IMG/VR virus record: IMGVR_UViG_3300015204_000007 | Span: 1 to 30,898 of that record | DNA from: a virus | Direction: 5' to 3' (one strand) | DNA: 30,898 nt | Part shown: positions 12,927-22,619 of the stretch, in pieces | How the letters are laid out: every line of letters begins with the position of its first letter | How positions within the stretch are numbered: the stretch's first letter is position 1 | Made by a program: the position numbers and the translations under genes | Notes under the pieces: model-generated | Databases searched by the model: none | What the model was told of the DNA's origin: nothing | Seen by the model: only the letters and a program-made list of their open reading frames with translations

Positions 12927-12965
12927 GTCATTTCCTGTGTTATTTAATACCCGGTAACAATATCA

Positions 12966-15227: not shown

Positions 15228-15462
15228 TGTTTTTTATTCCTGGCCAGCGGCGCTGGACTTCGTCAAACATCCTAGATATTCCAACATACTTAGGATCACC
15301 TGTCAATCTTTTAATTTCATTAATTAGTTTAGCTTTTTTAATGATTTCTAGTGCGCGGGACTTGGATTTTCGTTGACTGGTCATGCTCGTAGGAATAATC
15401 ATGCCGTTGCTGTTGGTCCACAGGCTCTTAAAATGACCATAGATGTTACTTTTAGCGGTCAC
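15211..15462 (-). CDS. small basic protein, GTG start
   Basis: An 83-residue Lys/Arg-rich protein. GTG 15462 overlaps the upstream TGA (GTGA), with GGAG eight bases ahead, which supports the GTG. The basic middle (SQRKSKSRALEIIKKAKLIN) followed by a helix with R-M-F-D-E-V-Q-R-R-W suggests nucleic-acid binding. No defined helix-turn-helix found. Confidence 0.62.
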   Translation of the reverse strand: MTAKSNIYGHFKSLWTNSNGMIIPTSMTSQRKSKSRALEIIKKAKLINEIKRLTGDPKYVGISRMFDEVQRRWPGIKNNDADG

Positions 15463-15971
15463 GGCGCAATCTCCAGTAATAAAGTTACCAAATCATCATA
15501 GCCCGTTACGACTTCGTCTAACTCTTCGTTCCTGGCCGTAAATATTGAAATACCCGCTTCTTTACACCAGGCTACCTTGTGACGTATTGTGCCGTTGCGC
15601 CAGGTGCGCCGGAGATGCTCTGCGGTTAATTTTTCTTCATATTCGGGGTCGAGTGAACCTTTCCGCTTTACTCGTTCCATAAACATGTCGGCCATCTTGA
15701 GCGCCTTAAAGCTATCTTTATGAATTAATAAGTAGTACCGGCGCTTCAGAACTTCGTCCGTAAAAGCGGCGTTAATTAATTGGTCGGACGGCGCGCCCGA
15801 GTCTTCCAGGTGCTCGTGGATGTAGTGGTAGTTTGACCGCTCCATAGGCGTACACCTAAAGGGACGCCAGTACGCCACATAGTAATTTTCAAATGACGGG
15901 CCTTCGTAGTTGACTGTGTCAATCCACAACGACAGGTGCTGGGGGGTAAACTCGGCTGTTGTTTTATTCAT
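15459..15971 (-). CDS. hypothetical protein, first gene of the leftward operon
   Basis: A 170-residue mixed-charge protein, rich in aromatic residues near the N-terminus (SLWIDTVNYEG, YYVAYWRPF) and helical in the rest, with an R-R-T-W-R-N-G-T-I-R-H-K-V-A-W segment that could be DNA-contacting. No good ribosome-binding site precedes the ATG, so the transcript may be nearly leaderless or the site weak. First-gene position next to the divergent control region would suit a regulatory protein, but no known fold is recognised. Confidence 0.68.
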   Translation of the reverse strand: MNKTTAEFTPQHLSLWIDTVNYEGPSFENYYVAYWRPFRCTPMERSNYHYIHEHLEDSGAPSDQLINAAFTDEVLKRRYYLLIHKDSFKALKMADMFMERVKRKGSLDPEYEEKLTAEHLRRTWRNGTIRHKVAWCKEAGISIFTARNEELDEVVTGYDDLVTLLLEIAP

Positions 15972-16270
15972 TGCATTTATCTTATCAGTAATTTCATTAA
16001 ATAGCTACCTATTTATGCCTTTAATTCCAACATATTACTAACTGTAAGTTTCAATATTACCGGGGTTGTTCTTAGTTCCTATTTCTCACATGGTCAGGGC
16101 CAGGCTGGGCATACCAGTACCTGCCCACATATCTCAGTAGGAGGAACGGGTACTAGGACGATCCCATGGCTTGGGCCGAGTGTAGTATATTGTGAGGTTA
16201 CTTTCTAATCACACGCCTTCCTCACTTAACCAGTGGCGCTGTAGCTTTTGTGAATGCCCCCAGTAGCTAC

Positions 16271-16309
16271 AAAAAAAACCCGCCGCTGATGCAAAAGGGC
16301 GTCCAGCGG
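16271..16309 (-). terminator. intrinsic terminator, leftward
   Basis: Read on the minus strand: CCGCTG, a 15-base loop, CAGCGG, CGGG and an uninterrupted run of eight T. This is the clearest rho-independent terminator in the window. No leftward gene precedes it, so it ends either a small RNA or stray antisense transcription from the replication operon. Confidence 0.7.
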
Positions 16310-16354
16310 GACCGTCACCTGGTCATACTATTTTGCTAGCAATGACCACCGACT
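16271..16354 (-). ncRNA. candidate leftward small RNA in front of the replication operon
   Basis: An extended -10 element on the leftward strand (TGATATAGT) would start transcription near 16354. The predicted RNA of about 84 bases has one stem (TGGTCAT with ATGACCA, 15-base loop), a small GTCC/GGAC stem, and ends in a CCGCTG/CAGCGG hairpin, then CGGG and eight T. No start codon with a ribosome-binding site lies in it. Placed antisense to any leader of the rightward replication operon, it resembles in layout lambda OOP or plasmid antisense control RNAs. Existence and function are inferred from promoter plus terminator; transcription is untested. Confidence 0.45.
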
Positions 16355-16360
16355 AGGAGT

Positions 16361-16369
16361 ACTATATCA
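16361..16369 (-). promoter_or_regulatory. extended -10 promoter, leftward
   Basis: TGATATAGT on the minus strand matches the extended -10 consensus (TG-n-TATAAT) at all but one base. A weak -35-like TTGCTG lies 18 bases upstream, inside the first rightward gene. It points to the terminator about 90 bp away. Confidence 0.45.
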
Positions 16370-16374
16370 CACCT

Positions 16375-16623
16375 ATGAATACCACAGCAACACCAGTCAA
16401 TTTAAATTCAGAGGCCTGGGCGGAATGGCTAGCCTACCGCAAGGCAATCAAGCGCCCGCTAAAGGAACCCTCGTGGCCGCTAGCCCAGAAAAAAATGGCC
16501 AGCATGGGGGACCGGCAGCTTGACGCAGTGCATCATAGTATTGCAAATGGTTGGCAGGGGCTATGGTGTCCTCGAGAAGAGCGTGCTAGTATCGGCGGAA
16601 TACGGGCGGAGGACATCTGGTGA
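16375..16623 (+). CDS. small phage protein, replication-operon leader gene
   Basis: An 82-residue protein with A-W-A-E-W-L-A-Y-R-K-A-I-K-R-P, L-A-Q-K-K-M-A-S and N-G-W-Q-G-L-W. This block is familiar from the C-terminal part of phage replication organiser/DnaT-like proteins, where it appears as a short domain, but here it stands alone. The only purine-rich site (AGGAG) is 15 bases before the ATG, too far for normal use, so initiation may be leaderless or weak. The stop is immediately followed by the next gene, whose GTG overlaps. Confidence 0.68.
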   Translation: MNTTATPVNLNSEAWAEWLAYRKAIKRPLKEPSWPLAQKKMASMGDRQLDAVHHSIANGWQGLWCPREERASIGGIRAEDIW

Positions 16624-16844
16624 ATGACGCTGACAAAAAAGAATTTTCATTAGAACTTAGGAACCTGGGCGCGCTGTACGGCAAGCCGGTCAGCGCCGAA
16701 TTGCGGCTGCTGTATTGGGACGTGCTCCGGGTATTGACAATCGACGAATTCAGGCGTTCGGTCGCCGCAGTAAAGCGAACATCGACCTGGTTTCCGAGGC
16801 CAAGCGAGATAATTAAATCGGCAAAAACGGTAGGTTGGATATGA
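16620..16844 (+). CDS. small replication-operon protein, possible helicase-loader-type domain
   Basis: A 74-residue protein starting at GTG 16620; GGAGG seven bases ahead is an excellent site. The sequence has L-R-N-L-G-A-L-Y-G-K, L-L-Y-W-D-V-L and D-E-F-R-R-S-V-A-A-V followed by W-F-P-R-P-S-E-I-I. This arrangement occurs in small phage proteins next to replicative helicases and resembles the short helical domain of lambda P-like loaders. Position directly before the primase-type and helicase genes fits a loader or accessory. Assignment is tentative. Confidence 0.65.
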   Translation: MNDADKKEFSLELRNLGALYGKPVSAELRLLYWDVLRVLTIDEFRRSVAAVKRTSTWFPRPSEIIKSAKTVGWI

Positions 16845-17275
16845 GCGTAGAAAATCTATTAAATAATTTGACCAAGGTCAAGGCAACGGGTCCAGGCAAG
16901 TGGGTGGCGTGTTGCCCGGCGCACGAAGACCGAAGCCCCTCGCTTGCCATTAAGGACGACGGCGGGCACGTTCTGATTCATTGTTTTGGCGGTTGTAGTG
17001 TGGGCGACATTATGGGCGCGATGGGCCTGCCCATTTCAGATCTTTTTCCGCCAAGCGACGGCAAATGGAAGCCGGACGAGAAACCAAAGTTTTTTGGCAC
17101 TGCAAAGTTTACCGCTATCGATGCGCTCAGGTGCTTGTGGGGTGAAGGCGTAGTCATGGCGTTACTTGCATCGCAGATGGCCGACGGCCAGGTGCTCGAC
17201 GCGTCGGAACGTGACCGTCTAGCTACGGCCTGCGGGCGCGTCGCTACGGCCATGGAATACCTGGAGGCGCAATGA
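16841..17275 (+). CDS. primase zinc-binding domain protein without TOPRIM
   Basis: A 144-residue protein from ATG 16841, which overlaps the previous stop (ATGA) and has TAGG in front; a TTG two codons earlier is too close to that site. Residues 21-52 read W-V-A-C-C-P-A-H...R-S-P-S-L-A-I...H-C-F-G-G-C, the zinc-binding domain of bacterial/phage primases (C25, H28, C48, C52) that reads the priming trinucleotide. After I-M-G-A-M-G-L-P-I-S-D-L-F-P the usual TOPRIM catalytic domain is missing; a ~70-residue helical tail follows. It may recruit another primase, or supply template recognition to the adjacent helicase as in a split T7 gp4. Confidence 0.85.
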   Translation: MSVENLLNNLTKVKATGPGKWVACCPAHEDRSPSLAIKDDGGHVLIHCFGGCSVGDIMGAMGLPISDLFPPSDGKWKPDEKPKFFGTAKFTAIDALRCLWGEGVVMALLASQMADGQVLDASERDRLATACGRVATAMEYLEAQ

Positions 17276-18306
17276 CAGACGCCGAATCAGCCGCCGCGAA
17301 GGCGGACGACATTAGCCGGGCCAGGCGCATTGGCCGGATGCTAATTACAGAGGCCTCGCCGGGGGAGGACGACACGCCCGAGAAGATACTACTGGATTTT
17401 GCCAAGATGTCGGCCAAGGAAATGCGCGACGCGTACCTGAAGCATATGGCCACTTTTGAAACCCTGCCCCTGGACGCAAGCGGCGAAAAGGTTAGACTCT
17501 ATGCGGGAGAGTGGAGCATATGGAGCGGATTTCCGGGGGCCGGTAAGACGACCGCGATACGACAGATGGCCTGCAAATTTATGAAATCCTTGCGGGACGG
17601 GGAATGTGTTTTTATTGCTACCCTAGAGCAAGACCCGAGTTGGTACATTGTTGAAATGGCGGGGACGGCGGCGGGCGTTGAAACTCCGAGCGAGGAACAG
17701 ATCACTTCTTTTTTAGATACCTACGGAGACAAACTTAAAATATGGGGAATTGTAGGTATTGCGGATCACAAGAAGATACTAGCGACGGTGCGTGACCTGG
17801 CGACAAATCACGGCTGCAAGCATGCTATAATAGATTCATTAATGGCACTGGACATAGATAGTGGCGACAACGAAGCACAGCGGCAGTTTTCAAATTTACT
17901 TTCCGCCACAGCAAGGACCACGGGCGTGCACGTACACCTTGTCGCCCACCCACGTAAGCCACTGGCTGCTGACCAGGCCCCCAATAGTTGGGACGTGGCG
18001 GGTTCCAGTGACCTGGGTAGACTCGCATTCAACATTTTTTTTCTACGACGCGGACCCCAAGTTACCGGGGTAGAGAACATCAGCAATATGCTGCTGCATG
18101 TCGTTAAGCAGCGCACCAAGGGCTGGCACGGAGAGATTACGGGATGTTTTTATAGTTTAATGAGACAGTTTCACCTCGACGCTTATGCAACCATGCCGAT
18201 TAAATATTTGCCAGACGACCAGTACGACCCGGAAGGAATGTCGGACGAGCCTCCGTTTGTATTTAAGCGAGACGAGCAAGTAGTTAGACCGCCCTGGGAG
18301 TTATAA
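17272..18306 (+). CDS. RecA-fold replicative helicase (DnaB/T7 gp4 C-domain type)
   Basis: A 344-residue protein: Walker A G-F-P-G-A-G-K-T (86-93), catalytic Glu in A-T-L-E-Q-D (E119), Walker B H-A-I-I-D-S-L (184-190), the H-L-V-A-H-P-R-K-P motif (222-230) and V-A-G-S-S-D-L followed by F-F-L-R-R (arginine finger 259/260). This is the hexameric helicase core that unwinds DNA ahead of the fork. The first ~70 residues are helical and replace the primase domain found in fused phage enzymes. Start ATG overlaps the zinc-finger gene (ATGA), with GGAGG close ahead, so both parts should be made together. Confidence 0.9.
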   Translation: MTDAESAAAKADDISRARRIGRMLITEASPGEDDTPEKILLDFAKMSAKEMRDAYLKHMATFETLPLDASGEKVRLYAGEWSIWSGFPGAGKTTAIRQMACKFMKSLRDGECVFIATLEQDPSWYIVEMAGTAAGVETPSEEQITSFLDTYGDKLKIWGIVGIADHKKILATVRDLATNHGCKHAIIDSLMALDIDSGDNEAQRQFSNLLSATARTTGVHVHLVAHPRKPLAADQAPNSWDVAGSSDLGRLAFNIFFLRRGPQVTGVENISNMLLHVVKQRTKGWHGEITGCFYSLMRQFHLDAYATMPIKYLPDDQYDPEGMSDEPPFVFKRDEQVVRPPWEL

Positions 18307-22590: not shown

Positions 22591-22619
22591 TTGCTATTAT
22601 TTGAGACTTTTGATACAGT
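22591..22619 (+). promoter_or_regulatory. possible sigma70-type promoter
   Basis: TTGCTA, 17 bases, TACAGT. Both boxes are imperfect, but the spacing is ideal and the site lies in the only sizeable gap of this part, upstream of the gene at 22651. Confidence 0.42.

Follow-up and report, generated by a model that had tools for sequence, protein, structure and literature searches.

The divergent gap in front of the replication genes of a 30,898-base IMG/VR virus record (hereafter the window, meaning the whole stretch analysed) raises the question of whether a short self-terminating RNA is transcribed leftward from it, away from those genes, and what such a unit would do. An initial annotation had proposed an antisense small RNA at 16271-16369 guarding the replication operon, with a layout recalling lambda OOP and plasmid copy-control RNAs. 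The best explanation that we can offer is an OOP-like leftward unit damping the O/primase/helicase operon in cis, a reading to which we assign a probability of about one half. The window contained no tRNA and no Rfam match at gathering score, and in the gap none appeared at E values up to 10.

The divergent gap and its flanking operons

The candidate unit is held by an intergenic gap of 403 bp (15972-16374) in which no ORF of at least 50 aa was found, in agreement with the earlier description of the interval as free of genes. A rightward ORF of 29 codons with a GTG start running across the RNA (16250-16339) was dismissed, being without a ribosome-binding site. On the right, the replication operon opens with the gene of an 82-aa O-like replication protein (16375-16623, + strand; PHROG 678, E 7.6e-12), which corresponds to the C-terminal part of O only and whose ATG start is backed by alignment with the related phage L042. 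The remainder of the operon (16620-18306, + strand) encodes a 74-aa protein, a zinc-ribbon primase domain and a helicase, beyond which comes a RecA-dependent nuclease. On the left, a leftward operon begins with a gene of unrecognised family (15459-15971, - strand) and continues with a small protein, an SSB-like protein, NinB and a dGTP diphosphohydrolase. Because the gap is divergent, a leftward RNA would also aim at this operon (SSB-like, NinB; start 15971), a point absent from the initial annotation. Searches of bacterial genomes with the helicase and the upstream protein returned no prophage relatives.

Anatomy of the leftward unit

The putative leftward promoter has an extended -10 element, TGATATAGT (16361-16369, - strand; hexamer TATAGT at 16366-16361, TG at 16369-16368), with a position weight matrix (PWM) score of 10.35, and a candidate -35, TTGCTG (16385-16390, - strand), situated 18 bp from the -10 and within the O-like coding sequence. 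The -35 is weak, matching the consensus at 3/6 positions, as is usual among extended -10 promoters. TTGCTG-18-TGATATAGT had the top PWM score in the gap on both strands and ranked 17th in the contig, and a promoter as good as this would turn up by chance within the 90 nt leading to the terminator with a probability of about 2.5%. Its predicted start is A16354, seven bases past the -10, and its discriminator is the complement of a Shine-Dalgarno-like AGGAG (16355-16359, + strand) located 15 nt from the O-like ATG. Similar promoters directly upstream of genes in other gaps of the contig, for example TTGCCA-17-TGATATTGT at 12962(-) and TTGCTA-17-TGATACAGT at 22614(+), make it plausible that the phage uses this promoter type.

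Good sigma70-type promoters were seen in gaps directly upstream of genes at 12962(-), 22614(+), 30286(+) and 30628(+), two of them with the pattern TTGC..-17-TGATA..GT that resembles the promoter of the unit. The 15-nt spacing between AGGAG and ATG (16355-16377) is far above normal, the leftward -10 sitting in the long spacer, and an in-frame ATC at 16366 would have the usual distance from AGGAG.

From the position of the -10 and the T-run we predict a self-terminating RNA of 84 nt (16271-16354, - strand; start A16354), and folding of the 85-nt stretch at this place gave a z-score of -2.5. Its first stem-loop (TCGG.TGGTCAT...ATGACCA..TGAC; 16314-16353, - strand) has a folding energy of -16.9 kcal/mol (z -3.8), equalled in 0/200 shuffles, and pair probabilities mostly above 0.9. 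The intrinsic terminator (16271-16310, - strand) consists of a hairpin of -13.1 kcal/mol (16310-16279; pair probabilities about 0.65-0.9) followed by eight T (16278-16271). Stem 1 and the terminator draw on different bases, and pair modelling indicated that both form, each independently of the other. A further hairpin just beyond the T-run (GTAGCT...AGCTAC; 16240-16271, - strand) would be present in read-through transcripts only.

The T8 at 16278-16271 is the only run of at least seven T in the contig that has a stable hairpin, against 0.05 expected per shuffled contig, and the terminator was reproduced in 0/2000 shuffles of the gap. A promoter and terminator at such spacing arose together in 1/3000 local shuffles of the region from -250 to +60; the contig holds one other promoter-terminator unit (23130-23072), with a weaker hairpin and within coding sequence. 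A simple scan missed both elements because it accepts promoters only from 9/12 matches upward and hairpins only with loops no longer than 8. The promoter is unconvincing by itself, and it is the combination of promoter, stem and terminator that convinces. The extended -10, second stem and hairpin with eight T initially described on the leftward strand were thus confirmed by sequence, PWM, folding and shuffles, and this anatomy and these shuffle statistics support an RNA of about 84 nt that is read leftward beside the replication operon and terminates itself. We consider it probable that a short leftward RNA is made.

Distribution among relatives

Six phages share the divergent gene order (L002, L006, L042, L043, L046 and L047), and the proteins beside the gap are 37-52% identical between them and the window. 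A covariance model of the window RNA found only itself, the RNA being absent from the six syntenic phages, none of which has a leftward terminator close upstream of O and placed to end such an RNA. All that L042 offers is a weak stem, rich in AT, some 190 bp upstream of O, and the weak stem matches in L006 lie upstream of its leftward promoter. Leftward promoters do occur 75-100 bp upstream of O in L002, L006 and L042, with scores of 15.0, 13.8 and 10.6, respectively. In a redundant sample of O-like loci from IMG/VR, any leftward terminator was present in 5 of 75 and the whole unit in none, so that the proposed search for the terminator and extended -10 in homologous intergenic regions yielded no counterpart either in the six syntenic phages or in the 75 loci. 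No DNA relatives of the gap were found among phages at near or distant search settings, and stem 1 had no relatives in IMG/VR.

Two kinds of match were set aside. Three exact 18-mer matches to a terminator arm fell in unrelated DNA without a T-run, at about the number expected by chance. A two-hairpin covariance match in L046 (3537-3604; E 0.058), with a fold broadly resembling that of the RNA, is probably an ordinary terminator, since it stands directly after the SSB-like gene and outside the syntenic gap.

The initial annotation had held that a lack of conserved stems and terminator in relatives with conserved flanking genes would refute the RNA. That lack was found in 6/6 syntenic phages and counts against the RNA in part, but these are distant (37-52% identity) and turnover of the gap is to be expected, so the absence shows that the unit is lineage-specific without showing that it is non-functional. 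Judged from sequence, the window most likely carries a lineage-specific, well-formed, OOP-like transcription unit.

The gap itself varies greatly among the relatives, measuring about 134 bp in L046, which has a full-length O-type initiator (242 aa; L046:1131-1859); the window and most relatives keep the C-terminal 80-96 aa only, and in L043 the O-like part and the small gene after it form a single fusion. Most of these phages appear to have lost the origin-binding domain or exchanged it for something else. On the reverse strand, L002:3820-3920 and L006:3845-3945 share a leftward promoter that is strong, TTGACT-18/19-TATAATCC, and after it a conserved start, AGCGGAGCGA; the two also share GTCAACACTTGC...GTTAGC upstream of O. 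The divergent gap of L042 (3820-3930) contains tandem GGGGTATGCT repeats and a CATACATACA palindrome, possibly an origin or operator, and the roughly 430 nt upstream of the O-like gene of L043 (1452-1880) are highly structured and apparently non-coding.

Proposed action and competing readings

As we picture it, the 84-nt two-hairpin RNA would be made from an extended -10 promoter of sigma70 type that overlaps the beginning of the O-like gene, the intrinsic terminator would stop it short of the leftward operon, and the unit would brake the O/primase/helicase operon in cis. RNA polymerase firing leftward would run against rightward polymerase that had started at a promoter further to the left in the gap; by pairing with the rightward leader just upstream of AGGAG, the RNA could also expose that leader to cleavage. 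Transcripts running rightward from a start left of 16271 would contain, directly before AGGAG, a sequence fully complementary to the RNA. Scoring of the gap for rightward promoters gave nothing convincing, the best candidate lying in AT-rich DNA at 16020 with a score of 8.9, and we therefore infer the antisense step; between 16343 and 16365 there is no good rightward promoter, and a rightward start further left is therefore likely. When masking of the leader by the RNA was modelled, the first base of the ATG was freed and the accessibility of AGGAG hardly altered. A direct block of ribosome binding is consequently not predicted, and polymerase interference or duplex cleavage appears more likely. 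In lambda, a weakened pO raises pR transcription past pO, with convergent interference as the proposed cause, and OOP leaves the stability of O-P mRNA unaltered (PMC3985674). These data favour the promoter rather than the RNA as the active part, and the same may hold in the window.

The main rival explanation regards 16366 as an early promoter, the principal one of the leftward operon (SSB-like, NinB) and subject to attenuation, the 84-nt RNA as its aborted leader and the terminator at 16278 as a leader terminator overridden by a phage or host factor. The direction of the RNA, toward that operon, agrees with this, as do the weaker scores of window promoters nearer to it (9.7, 8.7 and 8.5) and the layout in L002, L006 and L042, where leaders run from the leftward promoters (15.0, 13.8 and 10.6) to the leftward operon without a strong terminator. 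The same relatives argue the other way as well, since none has a leftward leader terminator at this place beyond the weak stem of L042; moreover, no alternative antiterminator fold was found, stem 1 and the terminator not being mutually exclusive, the scanned proteins, a subset of the ORFs, included none recognisable as an antiterminator, and the Rfam search yielded neither a leader element nor any other match. We rate attenuation as rather unlikely. The terminator could instead serve as insulation, keeping stray leftward antisense transcription from the replication operon out of the leftward operon, with a fortuitous promoter match and no defined RNA; the far lower probability of the terminator by chance (0/2000 vs 2.5% for the promoter) is what would be expected then, yet a strong stem also stands between promoter and terminator (z -3.8), the harm from leftward transcription entering the leftward operon is not obvious and relatives of like layout manage without such a terminator. 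This too we hold to be unlikely, and slightly more so than attenuation.

The functional part might otherwise be the DNA, with the promoter and nearby inverted repeats (TGGTCAT-N15-ATGACCA) belonging to the replication origin or an operator and transcription activating the origin, as pO activity does near ori-lambda. The site adjoins replication genes, the cumulative GC skew has its minimum at about 15-16 kb, the stretch 15972-16060 is AT-rich and lambda pO influences ori activity (PMC3985674). The skew change, however, coincides with the change in gene direction, and only two-copy repeats, no iterons, were seen. TGGTCAT-N15-ATGACCA was considered as an operator, but 7-bp inverted repeats at such spacing are common by chance, an estimated 32 or so per contig, so that the zero expectation computed for this pair overstated its significance. 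We regard an origin or operator as improbable, and return to the OOP-like unit acting in cis.

Comparison with lambda OOP and other antisense RNAs

As a positive control, the promoter and terminator script used on the window was run on phage lambda, where it recovered pO (TGTCATAAT), with the -10 at +3 relative to the O start and the -35 inside O, and tO, with the T-run at -81. In the window the corresponding positions relative to the O-like start are -9 for the -10 and -97 for the T-run, and by this one scan the distance from -10 to T-run is 88 bp in the window and 84 bp in lambda, so that the resemblance to lambda OOP noted at the outset proved quantitatively close. Counted from the O start, lambdoid OOP extends from -90 to -10 (PMC3349717) and the predicted window RNA from -104 to -21. 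Both are leftward, self-terminating and 77-84 nt long and end in a strong GC hairpin and T-run; both begin 10-21 nt ahead of an O-type gene that contains the -35. In lambdoid pO and the window promoter alike, the discriminator overlaps sequence complementary to the ribosome-binding site of O (AGGAG).

In contrast to lambdoid OOP, the window RNA lacks sequence homology to the family and carries a second strong stem at its 5' end, its gap is divergent with no cII upstream, and its O-like protein corresponds to the C-terminal portion of O alone. A covariance model (R2) built from 10 aligned OOPs of lambdoid phages of E. coli, Salmonella and Erwinia scored the window RNA at 1.2 bits (E 1.4, 471 bp searched), no better than elsewhere in the gap, against 100 bits for lambda, a member of the training set, and a weak 17.9 bits for a Klebsiella phage outside it. 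Local alignments of the RNA alone to OOPs reached scores attained by 67-345 of 1000 shuffles, hardly distinct from these. Membership of the lambdoid OOP family was rejected on both results, and the unit is OOP-like in anatomy and not an OOP by sequence. Antisense overlap with the 3' end of cII is ruled out in the window, which has no cII-like gene and a divergent upstream operon.

Why lambdoid phages fire a promoter against O has been debated since the 1970s, with a primer, cII antisense and replication control as the proposed roles. A phage without cII that has the geometry of lambda in unrelated sequence would separate these roles, since that of its unit cannot be cII control. It would also supply a replication-control RNA from a little-studied environmental phage group. 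It is possible, though in our view doubtful, that non-lambdoid phages arrived independently at a self-terminating antisense unit resembling OOP where an O-type replication operon begins. Were this so, the leftward promoter opposing O would be the selected feature and cII regulation a lambdoid addition.

Plasmid copy-control RNAs (RNAI of ColE1, CopA of R1, RNAIII of pIP501) are short stem-loop RNAs that are cis-antisense to a replication leader. The window RNA is likewise short, stem-looped and, by position, cis-antisense to a replication leader, but that leader is itself predicted, no Rfam match was seen at E values up to 10 and the adjoining genes are a phage O-like/primase/helicase set and not a Rep gene. 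Small phage antisense RNAs opposing an adjacent gene include P22 sar and the P4/P1 C4-type RNAs. The window RNA is a candidate for the same class, of which sar is treated in PMC12197685, with the difference that sar and the C4-type RNAs target immunity or antirepressor genes, whereas the RNA proposed here adjoins replication genes.
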